A stretch of 64,000 nt of DNA from Branchiostoma floridae (Eukaryota > Chordata > Leptocardii > Amphioxiformes > Branchiostomatidae): NCBI RefSeq assembly GCF_000003815.2, contig NC_049995.1, forward strand, positions 8,508,100 to 8,572,099, written 5' to 3'. The notes under the pieces were generated by a model, which saw only the letters and a program-made list of their open reading frames with translations, did no database searches and was not told the origin of the DNA. How positions within the stretch are numbered: position 1 is the first letter of the stretch; each line of letters begins with the position of its first letter. Below are positions 3,323 to 32,200 of this stretch, piece by piece. The translations under genes and the position numbers were made by a program.

Positions 3323-3520
3323 TATGAAAAAAGATACTGCTAATTTTGTATAGACGAACGTAATGTTGGCACGTGAATGAATATCGATTTACGTATACTA
3401 TTGAAGAATCTTATCTTTTTCTCACATTAGGTACACTACAATACTACTACAAGTATCTTACCTGGCTTACCGCTTGACTGACCCTTACTTCCCTGACGAT
3501 TACGTATACAGCCCGAGGAT

Positions 3521-5072
3521 ATGGCAACTTACTCTCTTTTGCCAACCGAAGAGCCGGAAGCACCCATTGCCCAGCCGGATAAGGACTCAGATAAGAAAGC
3601 AAGTGTCAACATCAGCGTTAGTTGTCCTTCTAACAACTTCTGCACCAGGAGGCTGATATACGCGCTTGTTGTCATCGCCATAGTTTGTATTTTTGTATTC
3701 GTTGCCGTGTATCAGACAGTGCTGAAAGCCGTTCTGGTAGTTGTAGCCATTGTCATCATTGTCGTGCTTTCTTATGTGGCGTACTTTTACGTAAGCAAAA
3801 GATCCAATCTGACGGCACAGAAAGATGGTAAACCGTCCGCAAATGGAAAGCAAGAAGAGGTTACTGAAAGTACAACAGAACCAGTGGTAAAGCTTAGAGA
3901 TATACAGAGCGTTGCTTTTAGAGAAGAAAAGGACGACGTGGAAATAATCGATTTGAGTGTGGCTACTGGGTTCCAGTCAGAAGATGCAGTCGATAGAACC
4001 CCAGTATTTATAACGGAAGAAGACTCTGATGAAGTCCAGGAACCGCTCACAATACATGGACATACTGATCCCAAGATGACATTTATTACTGAACACGGTG
4101 CTATTTATACTGTCGTTGAAAACACGAAGAACATTGCTACTCATCGTGGTACTAAGAATGTTACAGTAGTTTTCGGTGGAAATAACATGTTCTGTGGGCC
4201 AGTACATGTCCCCTGGAGGCCTGGTGGATTCCAACTGCCCGGTATGAATCCCTTTTCTTACCCTCTCCGAAAGGTTATGTTTTGAGCGTGTTTGTCTGTC
4301 TGTCTGTCTGTCTGTATGTCTGTGGCAGCATAAATCAAGAAGGCTTTGATTGATCCTGATGATATTTGGTAGGTGGGTAGGTGTCAGGAAAACGAAGGTC
4401 AAGTTCTATAATGGGCCCCCTAGTGACTTCCTAAGGTACTGCAGCAAAACTTCCATTTTTGATAACTCTTGTTCTGGACATGCTGTGATCGTGATTTTTT
4501 AGTCGTAGATAGCCATTGGGGCAGAGAGTAAGTGCTGTAAGTTTGGACCCCTATAGCTAGCGGTTTTTTGGAACTACAGGCGCCGAATTCCTTCCAAACT
4601 TCAGACGAGAATAACTGAAGAACGTGATGAAGGATCGTCATGATTTTTAGTATGTAGATAGCCTAAGAGGTGACTTACATAATGAGATACTAATTGTGCA
4701 AATCAACAGCCAATTTGCATAATTAATGAGGAAAGTTTATAAATCCACTGCATTCCATGATTTTCAAGCTGAAATTCATAATTTCGATAATCTAATCCTC
4801 TTTTTATGATAGAGTGGAAACCGTATTTCGACGTCATCGCTAAAGAGATGCCTGCGGACTGGCAACAACTGGCAACGAACCTCGGACTACCCTGGGCACA
4901 GATCCGGGCCGTTGATCGACAGCATTCCGGTGACTGCTGGATCTGTTGTCAGCAGGTTCTGGACATGTGGCGCAGTAACAACGGCGCACCAGCAACGGTG
5001 GAAGACTTGATACAAGCCGTGAGGGACACTGGTCACAAGGATGTTGTAGAAAAGCTCGAAGCTATGCAATAG
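3521..5072 (+). CDS. two-pass membrane protein with C-terminal Death domain
   Basis: Exons 3521-4241 and 4813-5072 join in phase 1 (G+AG gives Glu) to give 326 residues. The ATG at 3521 has G at -3 and +4. Residues 1-42 are polar. Two hydrophobic stretches follow at about 45-65 (LIYALVVIAIVCIFVFVAV) and 68-90 (LKAVLVVVAIVIIVVLSYVA), separated by only a few residues, then a SKRS stop-transfer. This suggests a tight hairpin with both ends in the cytosol (inference). Residues 95-240 form an acidic, Thr/Ser-rich linker. Residues 241-326 form a Death domain (EWKPYFDVIAKEM...DCWICCQQVLDMW). The Death exon is a paralogue of 945-1249. A membrane-tethered Death platform is plausible; the partner is unknown. 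I do not recognise a named orthologue. Confidence 0.8.
4286..4700. repeat. dispersed repeat headed by (GTCT)n
   Basis: Lying in the intron of the two-pass Death gene, it begins with a GTCT microsatellite. It continues with a diverged unit containing TGATATTTGGTAGG, AACGAAGGTCAAG, CCTAGTGACTTCC and GGTACTGCAG. Related units follow GT-rich tracts at 21486-21600, 36670-36800 and 61262-61330, and also occur at 53190-53330 and 59880-60060. It may be the 3' part of a retroposon, but no coding part is visible. Confidence 0.5.
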
Positions 5073-7901: not shown

Positions 7902-10900
7902 ATGATGCCGAAGAACGAGGTAAATCTATAGAAATTTAAAACATCATTGTTTATCAAAATCATTTTCTATGACATTTTATTATACCGTATTATTAAAGAA
8001 CTATATGGAGAATTTAATGAAAACTGGTACATGCACCTATGAAATTTCATATTGTTCTATTTCTTGATTATATTTCATGATTTTCACGAAATATCAATTA
8101 CCATTCTAACAAGCAGAATAATGTAGCCCTTACAGAACGAAAGAATAAAGTCTCCTAATTACATTCGTGAAGAAGGACTTTTTGTTTTCCGTTTCTGTGT
8201 TTATTTGTCCTGGTGTATGTTCGCAGATATTTGAATATTGTACAGTGACAGAAAGTGAGGCGGGATATGATGTAACTGGAGATCTGCAGGATTGGAAAAA
8301 TGGTTTGGCCTGGGTCCAAAGTTGGTGCGGCAGGCCTAGGCTAGGTCAGGGTTCATAGGAATGCAGGAAAATGAAATACTAGTAGTAGAATTAGCGAGAA
8401 ATTAATTCAACTGTGATGAATGAAACAAGAAATTCATAAAAAGTCATACAATGATGCTAGTGAACGAATAGCATGTAATCTACGATTTACTGTACTAAAA
8501 ATCCGCCTCTTTTGACCAGGTTACGTCATCCCTAGCAGTGATATTCCTGTTTGGCGTGACGTCAGCACGAGACGTGGACCTCGGCTTGTGCTCGGTAGAA
8601 AGGGAGACGTGTGCGTGTGGAACAACCGGTCTCAACTTCATCATTACTTACAAAGCGTATGTCTAATCGTTATCATTCTCCTACGCAGAGGAACCACAGT
8701 CGTGTCAAAACTTCCAGCGTTGGGGACCGGGCGTTAGGAGGATGATCGTTATGTACTTCCTTGCAACCTATTCGAAGTAAAAGACCCTAGCTGTCAGTCT
8801 GTGGCCATTGAAACGAAAGCGAAGGTATTTGTCGGTCTACGTGTTCGCTTGTCCTGGTGTGTGTCCGTAGTTATTTGTGTGAATATTGTATACATGTAGA
8901 ATGGCCTGATGTGACGCCAAGTATAGTGCAACTGTAACCAGAGACTGGCAGGATGGGAAGGTTGAATCGGCCAGGGTCCAAAGTTGTTCCCTCAGGTTGG
9001 CAGGATGCATAGACAAAAGTAGCGCTAGCGAGTTACTCACTATAATGAATAAGATTAACCGTTCTTCAAAACACCAAATACTTAACGGAGGTCATGGATT
9101 TCTTGACGACAGCGCGTTATATCCAAAGTGTATGTTTTCAGATGTTCTGCGTTCTACAAGTGGGAACACTACTGCCGCCCATGTGACGGAGTCAAGCACG
9201 ACCAGGTGTGTGAGAAGTACCGCTACTGCGCAGAGTGCCATGACGTCACGTACGGTAAAAATGACGGCTGCGCCAGATGTCCACCTAGCAAGTACGGCAA
9301 GTTCTGCACCTCAGGTGGGTTCTAAATTTTTATTAACAACATTTTCGCCCATAAGTTCTGTTTTTGATGCACATGTTTGTAGTGGCATGTATTCGTACTT
9401 ACAGAAGGGTGTCAAAAGGTGAGGGTGAAGATAGTGTCACCATAAAAGTCAGATTTGAGGGAATGATGGGAAACAGTAGTTCGGATTGAACTAGTCGTTC
9501 ATCATACATGACAGACCTTCCAGGTCACGAGGTCAAAGGAAGAGGCTACTTATAATAATATCGGGTGTATTTTGCAGCCAGTAGGTACCCAGAGTATTCT
9601 CGGGGAGGTAATGTTCTTTGTGTTTTAACAGTTATATTTTTCATATCCTATAGCTAGTCACGTTCATATGCATGGACATATGCCTTGTAAATCAAAGCTT
9701 TTGGTCAGTCCTCTAGCTGAAATGACCGGAAGTAAATGTCATGTCAGGTGGCCTGAACGGAATGTGATGTCAGCAAAGGGTAGAATTCATTTTGTTATCC
9801 CATGATGTTTCTGACCAGATTGCCAGTGCCAGCACGGCGGTGCTTGTAATCAGGACGGGAGCTGCCGATGTCCGGTGGGGTTCCACGGAACGTACTGTGA
9901 ACAGGCGATCGGTCAGTACATACCTTTACCTTTGCTTTGCTTCACCATTGATTGTATCATATGTATATTCAAAGTTTAACGTTCCGTGGCTTTGAGCCCT
10001 CATGGTACAATTTTTTTCTTCTTTTAGGACCGGTCCGGAAAAAACGGACCTGAAAAAATCAGACCGATTCGAAATTGGACCGACTCGAAAATGAACAAAT
10101 TATACCGACACGACTGTTTTGAGGCTTACATGTCCAAGCAAATAACAAGAGGGAAGTAGAGGAGAAATTTTTCCACAGTCAAACTTGGTCTAACACAGAG
10201 GCAGTTAGCGTCGTTTACGTGAAGATAGGATTTTAAAACGCTAATGGATAGAATCCAAAAGTTGTTAGCGAAATGGACCATTGTTTTGAGTAGTTCAGTT
10301 CACAAATAATTAGGTCCAGGTTAATGTCCGCACCTGGACCTGATCCTCTGGACCTGGACCGCACCTGTACCTGAATTTGCTGTACCAGTACCCACTCCTA
10401 ATACAATGTACTATACCATGTACAGTTGATGGCAGCTGGTCTGACTGGAGCCCCTGGTCGACTTGTAGCGTGACATGCGGGTCCGGTACACAGAGTCGCA
10501 CCCGTACCTTTACCGACCCTGCGCCGGCCAACGGCGGGGCACCGTGCGAGGGGAACTCACAGGACACCCGGGACTGTCATACAGGGACAGGTTGCCCAGG
10601 TTAGACTAAGGTCGCATTCCGTAACCGGGGCCCTTCGGACAGCTTTTGGGTACAAAAAGTGTGATAGCAAACTATACAAGACGTAAAGAGAATAGTTGTG
10701 GGCATTATTTGTGTATATTCTTACGTATACATTTCTATGTATTTTGCGTTTCCACAAACAGTCTGGCCGGGCCCCGGTTTGGGAATGTGACGTTAGCCTA
10801 AAGTCTGCTCTTGGTAGCCAATTGCTCAATTATCATCACATTTATGGCACATGAACCTTGAATGCAACTAAACGTGAAATTGAAGAACAGTAGCTAACAC

Positions 10901-12980
10901 TAATATTTTACACCGCTATTTGTGAATTACTTGTACAATGATACCTGTGGAAAAAAACTTACAGTTTCAGTGAGTTTTTTACCATGTACAGTTAGAGTTT
11001 GTAGCACTAGTAGTTGAAAGTCACAGTGCATGTTGTGTCAATAAAGATTTATTATTGCCCAGATTAAGTTGACAGACTGTTCACCGAAACGTTGCCGGGC
11101 AAAACCTAGCTGTGTCAGAACCATACCAACACTTGAAACTTACCAAGCAGATCCTTATTTTGTTTTTCTTCTCTTAGTTGACGGTTCCTGGTCCGACTGG
11201 AGCCCGTGGTCTGCCTGTAACGTGACCTGTGGTATCGGCACCCGGTCCCGTGTACGTGTTTGTGACGAGCCGGCAGCCTCGAAGGGGGGGAAAGAATGTG
11301 CAGGGGAAGAAACGAAGAATCAGACATGCGACACTAAACAGCCTTGTAAAGGTACATTAGAATGAATAGATAAGTGATCAGTCTATTGCAAGACCATAAC
11401 GAACGCTACGCCAGTAATATTGCAAACAAAGCAATGCCAATGGAAAATGTTTTTTACGCTTACCCGGCCGACCCTTAAGTTAAAAACTTGATGACCCTGG
11501 CCTTTTTGTTGGCCCGACGTCAAACCGCTTGGAACTAATCTTCTAGTAGATCCTTCGATGTCATAAGATAGTATCAAAACTGGCCAAGGAGTATAGCCGG
11601 CCAAAGGGAGTCAAATGGGCACCGGAGGTGGGTTTGATATTATATTACGCCACCGTGGATCTGCTTGGAGATTAGCTTGGAACCGATTTGGAAGAACATA
11701 CTAACGAAATACGTAATGGTCTATTTTGTTTACGTTTCAAAGAGTAGCTGTAGAATATTTCTGCTCTTGTGATAACAAGATACTTGATGAATATATCTAT
11801 ATATTAACTAGATTTATAATAGGACTGTGTCCAGCTTTGAAATTTTGTCTATCCCCTTCATTGTTTATGTGCCTTTGTTATATAATATGAAATAGTCGGT
11901 CTTATACCATATAGAATATTCTCCACCACAGTTAACTGTGTTTATTTTCAGTATTTCCTGTGTCAGGAGATATTGTCATGACAACAGGGATCGCTCTATT
12001 GGTCTTTGCTGATGTCGTCTTTATGCCATGGATGAGGATCATGAAGATCATAACGTCAGGTAAAAATGTCTTTTATAGAATTTTCTATCTGAATGCATAA
12101 ATAACGATGTGTTAAAAGGTATGAAAAAGACAATTTAGCGTATATATTAATCATACACAATTTCTCGTGCTTGTACGACGACAGCTATGCCGACTTATGC
12201 AGCTATCCATAGGGTAATTTAGGCCTACGTCACATTTCCAAACCGGGGAGGCCGGGCAGCATTCGAGAACGAAAAGTATGATATAAAAGACACCAAACTG
12301 CACAAGACGTAAAGGGAATAGTTATGGGTATTATCTGTGTATATTTTACGTATACATTTCTATTTTTCGTTTCCACAAACAGCCCGGTCGGAACTGTGAC
12401 GTTAGCCTTAATGTAGGGAAAGCTCTTGGTATCATTTTGCGTAACAGTTCACATCAAGCATGTGCCTTCAGCAAAAATTGCTTACACATCAATCTATAAG
12501 ATATTTTTATCTCTTGCAGCGTCTTCGCTATTTTCAACGCCGAAGAAGCTGTTCATCGTCCATGGAGGAGAAGACAAGTACTCGCTAGTAGAGCCACTTG
12601 TGCGAGAAATAGTAGACCAAGGTTTTCCTAAGAAGCATGTCTTCTACGATAAGTGGTCTATAGGATTCACACAGGGTATCAAAGAAACTATATCCTCAGC
12701 AATACACGATAACTCCTGTAAACTAGCTGTCATAGTGATCAGCGAAGATATGGAGAAGAAATATTGGCCTAGAAAAGAGTTTGAGGAATTCTTGAAGCAA
12801 GGGAAGGCGTTCTTTCCGATTTTCTATGGCGTGTCGCCCTCAGAAGTTAGACAGCGCTACTCGCCAACATTGGCTGATACTCGGGGGGTGGAGGTGCCGA
12901 GAACAGGAGAGAGGGTGGATGACATCTGGATAGCGGGGACTGCAAGTCAGATACGTAAGATTCTACAGGGCAAGCTTTAA
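7902..12980 (+). CDS. TIR receptor with EGF-like and two TSP1 repeats
   Basis: Eight exons join in frame to 445 residues: 7902-7919, 8520-8656, 9142-9314, 9819-9911, 10426-10599, 11178-11351, 11952-12059, 12520-12980. Exons 1-2 encode a signal peptide (MMPKNEVTSSLAVIFLFG). Residues 28-109 form a Cys-rich region and 110-140 an EGF-like module (CQCQHGGACNQDGSCRCP). Residues 141-198 and 199-256 are TSP1 repeats with WSDWSPW and CSVTCG / CNVTCG motifs, whose Trp residues are usual C-mannosylation sites. About 263-282 is one membrane segment, followed by a basic stop-transfer (MRIMKI). Residues 293-445 form a TIR domain (KKLFIVHGGED...PIFYGVSPSEVR). Introns flanking the EGF, TSP1, TM and TIR exons are all phase 1. 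There is no leucine-rich repeat. The likely role is a surface receptor signalling through TIR contacts. The ligand is unknown. The call of exon 1 rests on phase and signal-peptide fit. Confidence 0.82.
10017..10400. repeat. GGTCCGG/CCGGACC dispersed repeat
   Basis: Segments rich in GGACCGGTCC, AAACGGACCTG and TCCTCTGGACCTG recur at 50508-50640 and 40860-40930. The end lies just before the acceptor of the first TSP1 exon. It is probably a MITE or a split copy; no coding part is visible. Confidence 0.45.
10603..10802. mobile_element. MITE, GGGGCCCGG family, copy 1
   Basis: This roughly 200-bp element has inverted ends (TTAG.CTAAGGTC.CATTCC ... GGAATGTGACGTTAGCCTAA) and inner ends around CCGGGGCCC. 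Other copies are at 12218-12411, 18566-18767, 38376-38512 and 38514-38751, with a fragment at 1957-2028. Its 5' end directly abuts the splice donor after the first TSP1 exon. Confidence 0.7.
11547..11690. mobile_element. MITE-like repeat, AAGATAGTATCAAA family
   Basis: The ends contain CATAAGATAGTATCAAA and GTGGATCTGCTTGGAGAT. A related copy with clearer inverted ends (AGATCCTGCGGTAGCATAAG / TTATGCCACTGTAGGATCTG) lies at 33735-33890. Confidence 0.5.
12218..12411. mobile_element. MITE, GGGGCCCGG family, copy 2
   Basis: The ends are TTAGGCCTACGTCACATTTC and GAACTGTGACGTTAGCCTTA. It is in the intron between the TM and TIR exons. The middle shares TTATGGGTATTATCTGTGTA-type sequence with copy 1. 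Confidence 0.7.
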
Positions 12981-15151: not shown

Positions 15152-18100
15152 ATGGCTGCACGGCAAGGTGAGACTTACTCATATCCATTTGCTAGAAGCT
15201 AGCATTGTCTTATACTTTGCCGTAGATATTTTACAGGTACAGCAAGTGATAACATATTCTTCTACTAGCCTAGGTGTAATATGTTATTCGAAAGTCTGGT
15301 AGAAAAGGAACGTATGTGAACGGGTATAACACATGAGGCAGCCCTCTAGCGATATCTTCTCATTCTGCATCCATGTAACGTTACGGTTGTACAGTGAAAA
15401 AAGCATTTCATATCATGCGTTCTATTTTTAGCATTGACTGTTTTCAGGGCCTAAGCTTCTTGGCTCATGGGCCAACATGACACCAAGGAAGTTTTATCAC
15501 AAACCCCAGTAGACCTTGAGAAACTCAGGGGGCTGTTTTAAAATCCTTTAGAACTTTAGGGCATGTTGGCTCAAGGAGCTGGACTGTATATCCAAACTAT
15601 GACTGTTTATTATCGATAGTGTTTAAGACTGACGACTAATATCATAAATATTTCTCATTGTAGGGGTTCAGAAGTACTTCTTCTACATTAAGCAGAAAGT
15701 GGCCGCTGACTGGAAAGACTTGGCCCACTTGTTAGGCTTTGACAAGCCAGATATCGGAAACATAGAGGGCAGGAACCGTGATGACAGGTCCCGCTGTATG
15801 GACATGTTAGAAGAATGGAAAAAGAGAAATGGAAACGCCGCCACTATAGGGGTCCTGATGGAGGCTCTGTCTGAGGCCGGCCAACAGGACGTTCTGCATG
15901 GATTGAAGAATAAATATCCTGGTAATGTCATTGACTGTTTCTTTTTTGTATAATGGAGAACTTTTCTTCACAACCAGTGATTCTCACAAGATACTTTTCG
16001 ATGTCTGACAGAGCTTCTTACTGGAGTTTTGCTTCTCGCCGCTATATGTAACAATTCCAAAGTCTGTACCCCCCCCCCCTCGTAACGGTTCATCACTGGG
16101 GTTGACTTCCTTATCCAGACTATTTTTTAAATCCAAGTCTATTGTCTTCTCGAGCTCTATCTATCACTCTGACCCTTTCCCACGAGTCAATGACGCAGGC
16201 AATGTAGTCCGTGATTGCGGAATTCTTCCCTTCTTTATGTGATTCTTAGAACTTAAGAAGCACTGAGGAAGATTTCAGACATATCGAAACGTCAGCAAGT
16301 AAGAATTGCTGGTTGTGAAGAAGAATTATCAAATACATATATTCTACCAACCTGATGAAATTATTTTCGGATACATGTATTCGTTTCTTATTTCAAGAAT
16401 TTTTTTCTACAATCTGATGTGCATTACAATTTAATGTATGGCCATGTGTGTCTTTGATACTGTTGTGGGGGATCAGATTAAGAATTTGTTCTTTGCTTTC
16501 AACAGAGCTGGCTACACAGCAGGAGACTGGAGGGCAACCTCAACGGCAGACAGCACTTCAACCTCAGCAAAACAGAAGGGGACAACCTGTGAGCTCCCAC
16601 CACACAACCCAACCGAAGCAGGCGACAAGGGGACAACCTCCAAGTGGACAACCTCAGTACGGGGCAACCGAGCAACCTATGAGCTCTCATGACACAACAC
16701 AACCTACGCAGGAGACATGGGATCAATCCTACTCAGACACGAGTAGGCAACCCCAACAAGAGACGGCGGGGGCGTCATCAACCGGGGAAGCAACGTATGC
16801 ATCGGACTGCCCTGTATGCCCCAACGGTAAGTCAACCTAAATATACAGTCAAACCTGCCCAAGCGACCACCTCTTCTCAGCGACCACCTGGCCATTTCGA
16901 CCGATTTTTCTCGGTCCCGATTTTTTCCCCATTGACGTAAGCATTAAGCGACCTTTTCTCAACGTCAACGACCACCTGGCCAACGCGACCGCGACCGGCC
17001 CAATTTGGGACCCATAACGACCACATCATTTTCAAAATTTTGTGCCGAAATCGGCCAGTTTGCGTCGGATTTTGACTGCCATTACGATATTATGTTTAGA
17101 ATAAAGATGGCGGCGGTCAATAGGTGGGTCAATGGGACAGTCTACTGTAATATGGGAAGAAATTTCGTTGTAAGAAAGTTCGAATTAAGTTGTTGGAGAA
17201 GTTTAAAAAAAATTATTATAAACTGAACGAATGCTGAAACGTATATAGCCTCATACTTTTTAAAGAAAGATCTGTGTAGCTCATACCTTTTCAAGAAAGA
17301 TCTGTGTGAGTGCTTTTGTCCAACTGTACTGTACATTCACCCGTGGGTACGTACGTTATCGGGACATACCGGGCATCGAATTCGAAAGGTGCACCGTAGT
17401 TATTTCAGATACGGCGATCAAGAACACAGCGACGCATAAAGGCTTGTGTGGTAACATTAAAGTTCCCTTACTGCTTAAAACGTTAGTGTACAAATATTGA
17501 GCTTTAAAACACCGTATCCTATAAAAGCTTGATAATAGCTTGGGGTTAAATTTACAATTTACAGTGTGCGTGTTATATTTGACATTAAAGACCTCGCTTG
17601 TTTGCGTGCGTGCAGTGTGCACAACGGAAACCATTTATACTTTGCATCGGGCATGTTTTGTCTCGATACTCTTCTCAGCGACCACCTGTCCAAATCGACC
17701 GCTTTTTTCCGGTCCCCCGAGTGGTCGTCTTGGGCAGGTTTGACTGTACTTGAAATCTTTCGGTAACGCTCCTGTCACACATTCGGAATTTCCACATGAC
17801 TTTGCTCCCGACAACTCCCCGACTAAGGTTGGCAATTGGTTGGGAGTAGTTTGGAACCCTCCCTATTTCTGCTCAAGTTTGTTTCATTCACTGTATTTGA
17901 GCAGAAGATGACTTCCCTACTATGGTTTTTCATATCTTGTACTTGACTGGCATAGACGATTTTTTAAACTGACAGGCAACCTTGCCGATCAACTCCCAAC
18001 CATAGATGTCCTTGCTCACGATTTACTCCCAACCGTGGTTTGGAGACGGTTGGGAGGGCGTAACATGTGTGACAGGCCTAGGGGCTTTACCGATATGTTT

Positions 18101-18553
18101 TTCTCGTTTTTAGGCCCGAAAAAGCTCTTCATCGTCCACAGCGGCGAAGACAAGGACTCCCTGGTGGACCCGCTGGCTCACGAGATCGTAGGCCAAGGAG
18201 TTCCCATGGAACACGTCTTCTACGATAAGTGGTCTATTGGTTACACTCAGGGTATCAAGCAATCAATCAACTCGGCTATTCAAGATAGTTGCTGTAAGCT
18301 TGCTGTTGTAGTGCTTAGCGAAGACATGATGAAGAAATACTGGCCTAGGAAAGAGATTGAGGACTTTTTGATGCGAAGGATAAGATTTTTCCCTATTTTC
18401 TATGGCGTGGAACCTGAGGAGGTTAGGAAAGATTATTCGCCAACGCTGGCTGACAAACGTGGGGTAGTAATACCTAAAACGGGGTGCAGGGTGGATGACA
18501 ACTTGATAGCAGGAACTGCCAGTAGCATCCGAAAGATCCTTCGGGATCTCTAG
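15152..18553 (+). CDS. MyD88-like adaptor: Death, Gln-rich linker, TIR
   Basis: Four exons, all joined in phase 1, give 344 residues: 15152-15167, 15664-15921, 16506-16826, 18114-18553. The ATG (AAACATGG) is a strong start. Residues 6-91 form a Death domain (VAADWKDLAHLLGF; CMDMLEEWKKRNGNAATI). Residues 92-198 form a Gln/Thr/Pro-rich linker repeating QPQ and GQP. Residues 199-344 form a TIR domain (KKLFIVHSGEDKDSLVDP; YDKWSIGYTQGI; PIFYGVEPEEVR). The order Death-linker-TIR is that of MyD88, which couples TIR receptors to Death-domain kinases. The TIR lacks MyD88's box 2 (RDxxPG) and is closer to the receptor TIR at 12520 than to vertebrate MyD88 as I recall it, so it is probably not the strict orthologue. 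It lies 2.2 kb downstream of that receptor. Confidence 0.83.
16847..17752. mobile_element. DNA-transposon remnant with GTCAAACCTGCCCAAG ends
   Basis: The left end TACAGTCAAACCTGCCCAAG is matched by the inverted right end CTTGGGCAGGTTTGACTGTA, 905 bp apart. Inner repeats of GCGACCACCT occur at both ends. The interior has no transposase-like frame. It sits in the last intron of the MyD88-like gene. Confidence 0.75.
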
Positions 18554-26200: not shown

Positions 26201-29200
26201 TGATTACGTATAGTAGTAACCTTACAAAGGCAGTACAGTAAACTGCAACACTCGGGTAAACAATTTGAGTACCAATTTCACGCAAGAGAGGAGCAATGCA
26301 TTCATTGTATTTGTAAGTAATGGGTATAGATAGGGGATAACGTATATCTGTTTGCCTTGTTGTTGTTTTTAAAGAAGAATAAAGGTAACGCTAGTTCGCC
26401 TTTATCCGTGGGGTAACCTATACCCGTTGTATAGGTTATTTAGGGGCATTTAGGGATATCAACTCGACAGATGATGGTGTCAAATGAATTCTATTTTTGA
26501 ATATTAAAATATTTTTCTGTATTGATAATAGTGCTATCTTTCCTGCGCTGTGATTGGCGATGCCTATATTAGGCGAAGACCCAATCCCATATAAAGGCAG
26601 GATAGACTATTCACATGCAGTTTGACGGACTCCTCCCCACAGCCGGTTCGTCGACGCCATGGCTACGGAAACACAGAAGATCCACAGAAAGACCGCCAGC
26701 AGGTTTTCGGGGTGTAGAAGAGAGACCGAGTATTTACCTCGTTTGCGTTTACAGGGAGTATAGAATTCGAAGATTGCCCTTTTAGTGTCATGAAGATTTC
26801 GTATTTTATTTTGCTTTGTGAAACTGCGAGAAGTTGTTGCTGCGTAGGGACGAATGTGAGTTGTCTGCGTTTTGCACGTGTATCGCTCTTTGTCATGCTG
26901 AGGTCCGTTCTTCTCGCAGACACTGGCGTGCCGGGCATTGTGTATGGGTTATGGAGGAAAGCATGCCTCACTGCGAGAATAGACGCTTATTTTGGGCGTT
27001 TGTTAGACATCACAGGTATATGCAGTACTGTCTGGCAGAACGTCGACGGAGAAGGCAAGTCACACCGCCGGCACGGCCGACCCCAGCATGACTGACGCAG
27101 CAGCCTTGTGAATGAGCTGGACGTTCCATAGCAGAGCACCAGTAACACTGTTTTTGACAGTGAGACTCAACAGGACAAGTCTGCGATATCTACGACCTTC
27201 TGGGAACGGGTAGGGAAACTTGCCGACAACAGAGAAGATAGAGTAGTTCCCTACGGGCGTAGGATTTACAAGCCAAGCAGGTACGCAAGGTTTTGAGCTC
27301 GCCGCCATTTTTGGCGTCTTGTGGAATTTTCCATTTTGATTTGTCTTCCTACGTTGGCTGTTTTTCTAGTGGATCCCTCGGTTGTTTTCTTTCTTGTTCC
27401 TTCATGATTTTATTTTCCTGTTTTCCCCTTTTGTATGATTATGGTGTGTTTTGTTGGTCAGCAACTATTCTGTCGTTCATTTCGTTTAGCGACTCGTAAT
27501 TTGCATATGTTTGCGCATCGCACATGTTTCGCGTGCGCAGGTGTGAGTGATTCTATTTGGTAAAATAGGCTTGGTATAATTAATTTTGTGTTGTCTCATT
27601 TGAGTTAGGTATGTTGATACAGCTGAGCCACCGCTAGGGCTGCCGTTTACCCCGTCTTTTCGCCATAGGAGCCTTTGTGAAGCGGTACAACGTTGTTCCA
27701 GTTTCCGCACGCTCGGAGCAGAGCCCGACCTTTTTTTTATCAAGAAAGAGTCGGAGGCTTCAACTTATCACTGGTAGCTCTATGGGTGAGTTACGTTCTT
27801 TGAAAGGCTTTAGACAGTATTTGGTATAGTTTTTTGTCTGCCTATCACGTTTGTTGTTGTTGTTGTGGAAGGAGTCAAACGTATTGCTTTATTTTACGTA
27901 TTTTCCTTTGTTTTTTTTTTCTGTATATTTGCTTTGTTTAATTTTGAAGTTAGGTTCGGCGATTCTGGGCATTGCATTTAGTGGACCAGCCAGCATTCAG
28001 CAACCCGAAAAGCTGAGGGACCAGGCCTCAAGACGCTCGGACAGCTGTCAACCACTGCGGCAGTTTTCCTAAGGTGTGTCCTATATCTCAGCTAGAGGTT
28101 GTTATCTTGTTGCTCGTCTGGTCGGCAGACAACCTCGAGTTTGTAGCGAGATTTCAGGTGATTTGATTTTTGTTTTTTTATGAGCCGATTTGCTTTTTGT
28201 TGGGTTTCTCGCTTGACAGGTTCTTGGACAACCCTAGGTAGAAAAAAAAAGTGTTTGCAGTTTTTTTGTCTGGTTGGTGTCATGCAATAATTTGTTGGAC
28301 AATTGAACTGTTGGACAGTTTTTGTTTGCTGTTGTCGTACGACATGCTGTAAACAGCCCCAGAGAGATAACAAGACTGCTGGAAAGTTTTGTTGTTGTTG
28401 TCATGCGACAGGTTGTTGGACAACCCCAGGTAAGTAACAAGACTGTTGGACAGTTTTGTTTGTAGTTGTCATGCGACAGGTTGTTGGACAACCCCAGGTA
28501 AGTAACAAGACTGTTGGACAGTTTTGTTTGTAGTTGTCATGCGACAGGTTGTTGGACAACCCCAGGTAAGTAACAAGACTATTGGATAGTTTTGTTTGTG
28601 GATGGACGACGGGTTGTGGGATAGCACCAGGCAGGTAACAGGACTGTTGGACAGTTTTGTTTGTTGATGTACGACAGGTTGTGGGACAACACCAGGCAAG
28701 TAACAAGACTGTTGGACAGTTTGATTTGTTGATGTACGACAGGCTGTGGGACGGCACCAGGCAAGTAACAGGACTGTTGGACAGTTTGGTTTGTTGATAT
28801 ATACGACAGGCTGTGGGACAGCACCAGGCAAGTAACAGGACTGTTGGACAGTTTTGTTTGTTGATGTACGACAGGCTGTGGGACAGCACCAGGCAGATAA
28901 CAAGACTGTTGGACAGTTTTGTTTGTTGACGTACGACAGGCTGTGGGACAGCACCAGGCAGGTAACAAGACTGTTGGACAGTTTTGTTTGTTGATGTACG
29001 ACAGGCTGTGGGACGGCACCAGGCAGGTAACAGGACTGTCGGACAGTTTGTTTGTTGATGTACGACAGGTTGTGGGACAACACCAGGCAAGTAACAGGAC
29101 TGTTGGGCAGTTTGGTTCGTTGATGTACGACAAGCTGTGGGACAGCACCAGGCAAGTAACAGGACTGTTGGGCAGTTTGGTTCGTTGATGTACGACAAGC

Positions 29201-32200
29201 TGTGGGACAGCACCAGGCAAGTAACAGGACTGTTGGACAGTTTGGTTCGTTGATGTACGATAGGCTGTGGGACGGCACCAGGCAAGTAACAGGACTGTTG
29301 GACAGTTTGGTTCGTTGATGTACGATAGGCTGTGGGACAGCACTAGGCAGGTAACAAGGCTGTTGAACAGTTTGGTTTGTTGATGTACGGCAGGTTGTGG
29401 GATAGCACCAACCAGGTAACAAGACTGTTGGACAGTTTGGTTGGTTGATGTACGACAGGCTGTGGGACAGCACCAGGCAAGTAACAAGACTGTTGGACAG
29501 TTTGGTTTGTTGTCGTGCGACAGGCTGTGGGACAGCACCAGGCAGGTAACAGGACTGTTGGACAGTTTGGTTTGTTGTCGTGCGACAGGCAGTGAGACAA
29601 CGCCAGGTAGAGTAACAACAGTGTACGACAGTTTTTTGTTTGCTGTTGTCGTATGACAGGTTGTTGGACAACCCCGGGTAGGTAATAAGACTGTTGGACA
29701 GTTTTGTTTGTTGTTGTCGTGCGACAGGTTGGTTAGACAACCCCAGAGAAGTAAAAAGGCTGCTCGACAGTTTTGTGACGCTGTGCTGTAGTACGACAGA
29801 TTGTTTAGCAACTCCAGGAAACCAACAAGACTGTTGGACATTTTTGTTTGTTGTTGTCGTGCGACAGGTTGTTAGACAACCCCAGAGAAGTAAAAAGGCT
29901 GTTAGACAGTTTTGTGGGTTGTCGTACGATAGATTGTTTAGCAACCCCAGGTAAGCAGCAAAACTGTTGGACATTTTTGTTTGTTGTTGTCGTGTGACAG
30001 GTTGTTAGACAACCTCAGAGAATTAAAAAGGCTGTTAGATAGTTTTGTGTGTTGTTGTACGACAGATTGTTGAGTAACCCCAGGTAAGCAGCAAGACTGT
30101 TGAAAAGTTTTTGGACTAGAGAAGTAAAGAGACTGTTAGACAGTTTTCTGTTATCGCACGATACGTTGTTACAAATTTGTTACCCAGGTGTTAGTGGTTG
30201 GTCGCACGACAGGTTGTTTAGACAAGCCTAGGTAGGTAACATGGGCGGACAGTTTTTTATTTTGTTTGTTATGCGACAAGTTGTGGGACAACCACAGGTG
30301 GAGTTTAAGACTGAAGGACAATTTTTGTGTGATATGGAGCCGTACTATCAGTTATTGGACAGCTTCAGGCTGATAACAGGACTTGGTTTTCGTTCGGTTT
30401 GTTACTTGACAAGTCGAGGGACAACTCTAGGCTGATATAGTTGGTCGTGCGACAGGGCAGCCACATGTAGGAAATGAGAATAGTACAGTTTGGCTGGCTG
30501 ACTACGACAGGTTTTGGTTAACTTCGTGATGGTACATACCGAGACTGTCCGATACTTTGGTGAGATTTGTGGCATTGCAGATTGTTGATGGACCCCGTGT
30601 AGATAACGAGAACGGCAAGCAGTTTTTAACGCGATTGAGAAAATATCTACAGAAGCACTGAAGTCGAGGCCGACAATTGTGAAGATTACGATGTGCAATG
30701 TAGAGAATAGTACGTCGTGGATAGTTTTAGGACGGACAGCACAAGATTAAAAGTTGGCACTTATATACGTATAACTGCAAGGAGTTTGAACTAATTACGA
30801 GTATCATTCGTTCGTTTTTCAACACGCTATTGTATCGCTATGATTCTTGGTACACGTACGTTTTCTTTGAAGTACAAGACACAGAGCAACATTGTCGTAG
30901 AACATTCGTAACCAACGACGTATTCGTTAGGTGGTACAGGTTTTCAAGAGAAAGGATAGCTTCATCCCGAAGGACATGCAATATGATAAATATGTTACAG
31001 GAAGCATTCAGTACAACGCGCGTGGGTGTGATGCGAGGACGTCTGAAAATACCACCTCAAGTTCAGCAACTTAGACCCACCAGCCAGCTGAGAAGTACAC
31101 GCAACAAACCATATGGGAGGACGGCGTACAGGCAGGGATGGTGGCCAAGCAAAGGGATCAAGAAGTTTAAAACCAGACTTAAAATTCAGAAACAGAGAGA
31201 CAACAGCCCCAGAATTTTTTACTCTCTCGTACGTTCGAATTGTGACCTGAACTTCCATTTTGCCTTAAAGTAACAGAATATGTTAGAGGGCGTCTGTTAA
31301 ACGCTTTCTTCGTAAAAAAACAACAACATCTATACAGTCTTAGAGTTCACTGTAGGGATGACCACTGTATTTGCTTGTTTTTAATTAGAACACATCAACG
31401 TCAGAAGTTGTCCAGGAAGTGACATGTTTTTCGTTGTAATGTTGAGAAACAACTAGTTATTAAATCGGTTTGCTGTTTTCGTCTGTCTCCATTTTCTTTA
31501 CTTGGTAGTACGTTCCAGCGCTTATGGTTTATAAGTAATTTGAAAAGGAGCATGTTTAATATAAAGTGCCATGGATAAATACAGGTTCGTGTATCTTGGG
31601 TAGTAATTTGTTGATAACTTGACGAGGCACGAAAGTTAAAAGGCAGCAGTTATTTTGTCGTTTTATTGAAACATTTAGGCAAAAGTCTAATTTCGCTTCG
31701 TAGGTAGATCTGACATGTTTAGCTGTAATGAGTCCAAAGATGACGCTATAAAAGTTTCAGGTTAATATAGCCAGTATTAAAAGGTCACTGCTTACTTTCT
31801 AACTGTCAGCCTTTATTGGCACACATAGGATTAAGGCTTATTTATAGAAGACATTAAGGTTTTGCTGCACATAAAATAAAATGTCTTCAATTTATCACAT
31901 ATGCTTTCCAAGCTAGACCTAGTAATATAGGGTTGGCTACCCAGCGCAAAACGGCATTGGCCAAAACTGGTTTAGTCAAATATGTATCAATTCAAGGGTT
32001 AGTGGATTTTCCAGAGAGGTTGTTATCAGTGAAAAGCTAGAACAGTAGTGAGGAGGACTCTAACACTTTAATACAGATTTTTTGTTTAGATACAATTATC
32101 CCAATGTATGTGACGTAGCTTGGTTTGCTAAACGGCAGTTGAAACAAATATTTGAAATCGAATGTCGACATTTTTTTTTTGTTTATACCCGAGTTCTGAT

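Follow-up and report, generated by a model that had tools for sequence, protein, structure and literature searches.

What kind of receptor arises when a TIR domain is joined to thrombospondin type 1 (TSP1) repeats, and what could such a receptor recognise? The question is raised by a gene, here called gene 1, at positions 7902-12980 of the plus strand in a 64,000-nucleotide stretch of the Branchiostoma floridae genome (assembly GCF_000003815.2, contig NC_049995.1, positions 8,508,100 to 8,572,099 of the forward strand; hereafter the window). Our analysis suggests that gene 1 encodes a TIR receptor whose ectodomain is new and whose TIR domain is of a type other than that of Toll-like receptors (TLRs). 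Belonging neither to these nor to the interleukin-1 receptors (IL-1Rs), it is a candidate for the sensing of bacterial surfaces.

Structure and domain content of gene 1

Gene 1 is predicted to have eight exons, with GT at the 5' end and AG at the 3' end of every intron; spliced together, these exons encode exactly 445 amino acids in one open frame, which ends with TAA at position 12980. No stop or frameshift was found inside the exons. Starting with the 3' border of exon 3, every junction is in phase 1, as is the rule for extracellular modules that have been shuffled. This is the gene that the original prediction, made from the DNA letters, had drawn: eight phase-matched exons for a signal peptide, a Cys-rich/EGF-like part, two TSP1 repeats, one transmembrane segment and a TIR domain.

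Exon 1 (7902-7919; ATG, encoding MMPKNE, 5' splice site GTAAAT) is only 18 nt long and is the weakest of the series. Exon 2 (8520-8656) carries the hydrophobic core of the signal peptide and the first part of a Cys-rich module similar to that of horseshoe-crab factor C, and ends in phase 2, as does the corresponding exon of a paralogue described below. The Cys-rich module continues in exon 3 (9142-9314) and is followed by the EGF-like exon with its six Cys (9819-9911), the exons of TSP1 repeats a (10426-10599; WSDWSPW, CSVTCG) and b (11178-11351), a single transmembrane exon (11952-12059) and the TIR exon with the stop (12520-12980). An optional 30-nt exon (9578-9607, encoding ASRYPEYSRG, phase 1-1) is suggested by AG/GT borders and an open frame only; it is in frame, so that its inclusion would give 455 and its skipping 445 amino acids. 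All these exons are on the plus strand.

In the hydrophobicity profile, the product begins like a signal peptide, and a single strong peak covers residues 274-292 (2.08, with an Asp inside). To be accepted as a transmembrane exon, a candidate had to be 90-130 nt long, preceded by YAG, followed by GTR and open in phase 1-1. In the interval from the exon of TSP1-b to that of the TIR, this filter was passed solely by the exon given above and by a variant of it whose 3' splice site lies 15 nt later. In a control comprising the plus strand from 13001 and the whole minus strand, 8 of 246 candidates had a hydrophobicity of at least 2.0.

A domain search of the 445-residue product, as the original prediction had proposed, placed two stretches of Pfam TSP_1 (E=8e-26, 90.4 bits) and TIR_2 (E=2.7e-7, 31.5 bits against a cut-off of 28; 34.8 bits in the genome search) above the cut-off. 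The other TIR model, PF01582, stayed below it (19.7 against 21.3 bits). At E<=1, the Pfam scan returned no leucine-rich repeat, immunoglobulin, Sushi, LCCL, C-type lectin or serine protease model. No EGF model exceeded the Pfam cut-off and the Cys-rich part matched no Pfam family; the label EGF-like is based on the six-Cys pattern and on the similarity to WIF1 (E=1e-10) among the EGF-type matches of a PDB search with the head. Both TSP1 repeats have the WSDWSPW motif and consensus sites for C-mannosylation and O-fucose. The ectodomain contains 29 Cys, an odd number, with 5 in TSP1-a as against 6 in TSP1-b.

Gene 1 is thus predicted to be open and spliceable and to encode a protein that passes the membrane once, with signal peptide, Cys-rich/EGF head, two TSP1 repeats, transmembrane segment and TIR domain. 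DNA sequence alone would also be compatible with alternative transcript ends, and hence with one transcript for a secreted head-TSP1 protein and another for a separate transmembrane-TIR or TIR-only protein. We consider this very unlikely, as the exons are joined in phase 1 at GT-AG sites from the 3' border of exon 3 onward, the transmembrane exon lies between the two parts, and the TIR and stop follow in the same frame.

Relationships of the TIR domain

A PDB search with the single TIR sequence of gene 1 gave 16 matches at E<=1, by name TIR domains of bacteria and plants; no TLR, IL-1R or MyD88 was among these 16. When the search was repeated with a profile built on the alignment of 25 amphioxus TIRs, the same bacterial TIRs led the list (3e-22 to 2e-17), including the NAD(+) hydrolase AbTIR at 6e-21, and MyD88 (0.013), TLR1 (0.34) and SARM1 (0.66) followed at a distance.

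A tree was then built from 40 rows: the 25 amphioxus rows of TIR_2 type, eight presumed TLR TIRs of the same genome and seven bacterial TIRs. The presumed TLR TIRs, so labelled as the best PF01582 matches (seven of them in frames of more than 860 amino acids, four of the eight near-identical), all lay on one side of a branch with 100/100 support. The 25 rows of the type found in gene 1 grouped together at 98/97. The seven bacterial rows, which had been found with a pattern from our own alignment, did not form one group, and the tree program warned of long branches meeting. Because of this scatter, the long branches, the pattern-based sampling and the presumptive TLR labels, the tree does not establish a bacterial origin of the amphioxus TIR type. 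The TIR_2 model is described as matching nearly every TIR subclade, and six all-eukaryotic clades are described as uncharacterised (PMC13142454).

By its sequence relatives and its place in the tree, we classify the TIR of gene 1 as bacterial-type and not TLR-type. Gene 1 resembles TLRs in the single-pass order with a cytoplasmic TIR, but differs from them in the lack of leucine-rich repeats, in the position of its TIR across the 100/100 branch, in the PF01582 score below the cut-off and in the poor E value of TLR1; from IL-1 receptors it differs in the lack of any immunoglobulin model at the threshold given. Membership in either family was therefore rejected on domain content and the TIR tree, which upholds the earlier view of a different receptor type. 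That view had missed the bacterial type of the TIR, as well as a downstream Death-TIR gene with a sister TIR.

The N-terminal head and factor C

As for the outermost module, we compared it with the N-terminus of factor C. The head of gene 1 and that of its paralogue were rebuilt from DNA beforehand; the factor C letters are provisional: they are not from a database and were typed after gene 1 had been read, so that they may be biased. With these provisional letters, 51 of 109 aligned residues of the gene 1 head were identical and all 18 of 18 Cys were in register. The score was 307, as compared with a mean of 77 (standard deviation 17, maximum 142) in 1000 shuffles with fixed Cys, and the TSP1 repeats of the window scored 26 and 29 with the same letters. 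PDB searches with the head had no factor C entry among their matches. On the provisional letters, homology between this head and the lipopolysaccharide (LPS)-binding head of factor C is a strong lead. The likeness would consist in an N-terminal Cys-rich module plus EGF with Cys in register; the difference is that gene 1 continues with TSP1, transmembrane segment and TIR in place of Sushi, LCCL, C-type lectin and serine protease.

A genome search with exon 3, in which three candidates were scored, revealed one relative, at C5:11706900 (66% identity, E=4e-22). The C5 gene has a similar hydrophobic start, and its Cys-rich and EGF exons correspond to those of gene 1 down to the intron phases; its EGF scored 19.8, just below the cut-off of 22.1, and its head scored 298 with the provisional factor C letters (46 of 106 identical). 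Past the head come Sushi repeats, represented by seven open reading frame (ORF) pieces above the Pfam cut-off, two of which are parts of one exon, i.e. six exons in the stretch read. No TIR was located near this gene among the TIR matches listed. The part read of this factor C-like gene lies at C5:11705400-11712500, its head carrying the motif R-W-K at the LPS site. Its order of Cys-rich, EGF and Sushi is the module order described for factor C (PMC10672452), and it is a possible lancelet factor C.

In the provisional letters, the tripeptide R-W-R occupies residues 35-37, and the offset of one residue from positions 36-38 would fit a mature chain that starts one residue earlier. The LPS tripeptide of T. 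tridentatus factor C has been given as Arg36-Trp37-Arg38; there, LPS is bound by the Cys-rich region together with the EGF domain, and mutation of the tripeptide abolishes binding (PMC10672452, PMC9525263). For C. rotundicauda factor C, the Sushi repeats have been held responsible (PMC10672452). The assignment of the site has been left open, and binding of factor C to other lipids, e.g. phosphatidylserine, has been reported, in a study that cites factor C under UniProt Q26422 (PMC9525263). At this site, exon 3 of gene 1 has K-W-E, which departs from the basic-aromatic-basic motif, and the C5 paralogue has R-W-K. With K-W-E in place, gene 1 could therefore have turned to a different anionic ligand or be left with none.

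The original prediction had suggested that the receptor may read TSP1 ligands (glycosaminoglycans, matrix or microbial surfaces) straight into TIR signalling. In this form of the idea, the TSP1 pair would be the part that binds glycosaminoglycan or matrix, and the head would be structural. The two WSDWSPW repeats with their consensus sites for C-mannosylation and O-fucose are in keeping with this. On the other hand, TSP1-a contains only 3 Lys/Arg (TSP1-b contains 8), which is little for heparin binding, and it is the distal module that has, on the provisional letters, a homologue known to bind LPS (PMC10672452). The claim found no support as it stood, and we judge it quite unlikely; the TSP1 pair may rather serve as a stalk, promote dimerisation or provide a surface for a co-receptor.

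The neighbouring Death-TIR gene

Downstream of gene 1, a second gene (gene 2; 15152-18553, plus strand) with four exons encodes 344 amino acids in the order Death domain, Gln/Thr-rich linker, TIR. Its start exon (15152-15167, MAARQ) is followed by the Death domain exon (15664-15921; Pfam Death at 1.3e-16 for the ORF, above the cut-off), the linker exon (16506-16826) and the TIR exon (18114-18553). No transmembrane segment was seen on inspection by eye. The TIR of gene 2, whose exon lies about 5 kb downstream, is the closest relative of the TIR of gene 1 (104 of 145 residues identical, 72%), and the two were joined at 100/98 in the tree. Their nonsynonymous divergence (dN) was 0.18 and their synonymous divergence (dS) 2.10, which is saturated, giving a dN/dS of about 0.09. 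The two TIRs are an old pair under constraint, the pair value being silent on which of the genes is constrained.

At a position of the BB loop, Gly was present in 33 of 35 related TIR rows, and Thr in gene 1 and gene 2 only. The Death domain of gene 2 was nearest in PDB to those of RIPK1 (4e-6) and MyD88 (1.5e-5). Gene 2 is like MyD88 in having Death domain, linker and TIR in this order, but differs from it in that its TIR groups with the bacterial-type amphioxus TIRs, whose profile gave MyD88 the weak value quoted above. Two further ORFs with Death domains were observed upstream of gene 1, at 713-1249 (Pfam 4.7e-12) and 4791-5072 (3.6e-15), both on the plus strand; the locus is therefore a small Death/TIR cluster.

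Proposed mode of action

Our preferred reading, which we hold tentatively and regard as plausible rather than probable, is that gene 1 encodes a shuffled pattern-recognition receptor with a factor C-like head that signals via the neighbouring Death-TIR protein. Starting from the anatomy, homologies and constraint read from the sequence, we infer ligand, clustering, partner and output as follows. The head would contact lipid A, an acidic phospholipid or another anionic microbial surface, or else a lipid of damaged cells. The TSP1 repeats would space the receptor and help to dimerise it, perhaps via the odd Cys of TSP1-a, and clustering would align the cytoplasmic TIRs. These might then recruit the gene 2 protein through the form of the BB loop that, among the TIRs compared, is common only to both, and the Death domain of gene 2 would relay the signal, i.e. 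MyD88-like logic carried out by a bacterial-type TIR pair.

Several points speak against this reading. Mutation of the tripeptide stops LPS binding by factor C, and K-W-E replaces R-W-R in gene 1, so that the C5 paralogue with R-W-K would be the better LPS candidate. The homology of the head depends on factor C letters that are provisional and were typed with gene 1 already known. Whether LPS binds to the Cys-rich region or to the Sushi repeats of factor C is itself in dispute (PMC10672452, PMC9525263), and Sushi is among the models that gene 1 lacks. Finally, we infer the pairing of receptor and adaptor from adjacency and the shared loop change, although common descent of the two TIRs would produce the same pattern.

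A bolder version, which we consider unlikely, is that of a chordate receptor which senses endotoxin or bacterial lipid directly by a head of factor C type and thereby triggers its bacterial-type TIR, which would act either enzymatically or via the Death-TIR partner. If true, it would represent a route of LPS sensing unrelated to TLR4/MD-2, using the head that starts the clotting cascade of horseshoe crabs. With a head of this kind on a TIR receptor, the sensor of a protease cascade would become a cell-autonomous receptor, and a bacterial-type TIR would be placed on a transmembrane receptor. Receptor and presumed adaptor together occupy a compact locus of about 11 kb, in which ligand, partner and enzyme activity are each open to test.

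Possible NADase activity of the TIR domain

Alternatively, gene 1 could be an enzyme receptor, its TIR being itself an NADase or a synthase of cyclic ADP-ribose type that is activated by ligand-driven clustering and needs no adaptor. The nearest solved relatives of the TIR include AbTIR, and its only NCBIfam match is a retron TIR antiphage family (E=9e-10), though at 37.9 bits out of a cut-off of 600. All 35 related amphioxus rows and all seven bacterial rows have the Glu of the WxxxE motif. However, this Glu (as WCxxE) is also shared by all eight presumed TLR TIRs of the genome, of which four are near-identical, and it is therefore undiagnostic; WxxxE was rejected as evidence of NADase activity. 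In a 2020 survey, this Glu is reported for over 70% of TIR domains, with the remark that its frequency need not correlate with activity, and SARM1 is given as the only metazoan TIR with known NADase activity (PMC7075850). The BB loop of gene 1 also differs from that of the 33 other rows. NADase activity of this TIR is possible, but we regard the enzyme receptor as a whole as rather unlikely.

Related TIR loci and known TIR hybrids

Besides genes 1 and 2, 33 related TIR loci were found in the genome, 18 of which were examined with 6-10 kb of upstream sequence and 15 with flanks of 1.5 kb. Upstream of the 18, no TSP1 match was better than E=0.28. Three of them had an upstream Death match at E<=1e-3, in one case on the strand opposite to the TIR, and stretches resembling CARD, NACHT, ankyrin and FN3 were named by eye in the ORF lists of 13. 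At the same threshold of E<=1e-3, the remaining 15 loci yielded a single match to Death and none to TSP1.

We also compared 79 TSP1 with 156 TIR positions; these were manually entered values to the nearest kb, with near-duplicate rows left out. Among the best 150 of 809 TSP1 exon candidates, only the TSP1 of the window lay within 40 kb of a listed TIR; two exons on C14 were 44-47 kb away. On these 150 exons, the idea of TSP1-TIR as a recurrent architecture was dropped.

Unusual TIR partners as such are already known from amphioxus, where 28 TIR domain combinations, 20 of them amphioxus-specific, have been described, including TIR-Laminin (PMC2575513). Gene 1 is like these hybrid genes in joining a TIR to unusual domains; what appears to be new is its ectodomain together with a non-TLR TIR. 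The terms 'TSP' and 'thrombospondin' do not occur in the text of that article, which has a separate additional file of all combinations. Among open-access literature searched by title, we found nothing on TSP1-transmembrane-TIR proteins or on TIR proteins that bear a factor C head. Lancelets are included in TIR group 18, whose architectures are diverse (PMC7075850); gene 1 shares its TIR type with the TIR_2-type proteins of lancelets and other invertebrates, and its TSP1 partner is unmatched in the 18 paralogue loci searched. In the ctenophore Mnemiopsis, a TIR2 protein with FN3 repeats is upregulated after bacterial challenge (PMC11797021). It likewise combines TIR_2 with extracellular-type repeats, which are FN3 there and TSP1 with a factor C-like head in gene 1.

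Such a wealth of combinations (PMC2575513) might indicate that gene 1 is an evolutionary by-product, i.e. one more amphioxus domain shuffle without a receptor role. This seems highly improbable in view of the gene 1 exons being free of stops and frameshifts and of the low dN/dS between the two TIRs of the window, even if that value was obtained at saturated dS and does not tell which gene is constrained.

Other features of the window

In a 262-amino-acid ORF at 3497-4285 (plus strand), a long double segment is hydrophobic and the tail is acidic; this ORF matched no Pfam family above the cut-off. From about 34700 to 63600, also on the plus strand, ORFs resembling a polycystin-1-like gene were observed, with GPS, Polycystin_dom and PKD_channel matches and an F5/8 C-like match below the cut-off. 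A minisatellite-like stretch at 28400-30000 is read as long repetitive ORFs of the minus strand.

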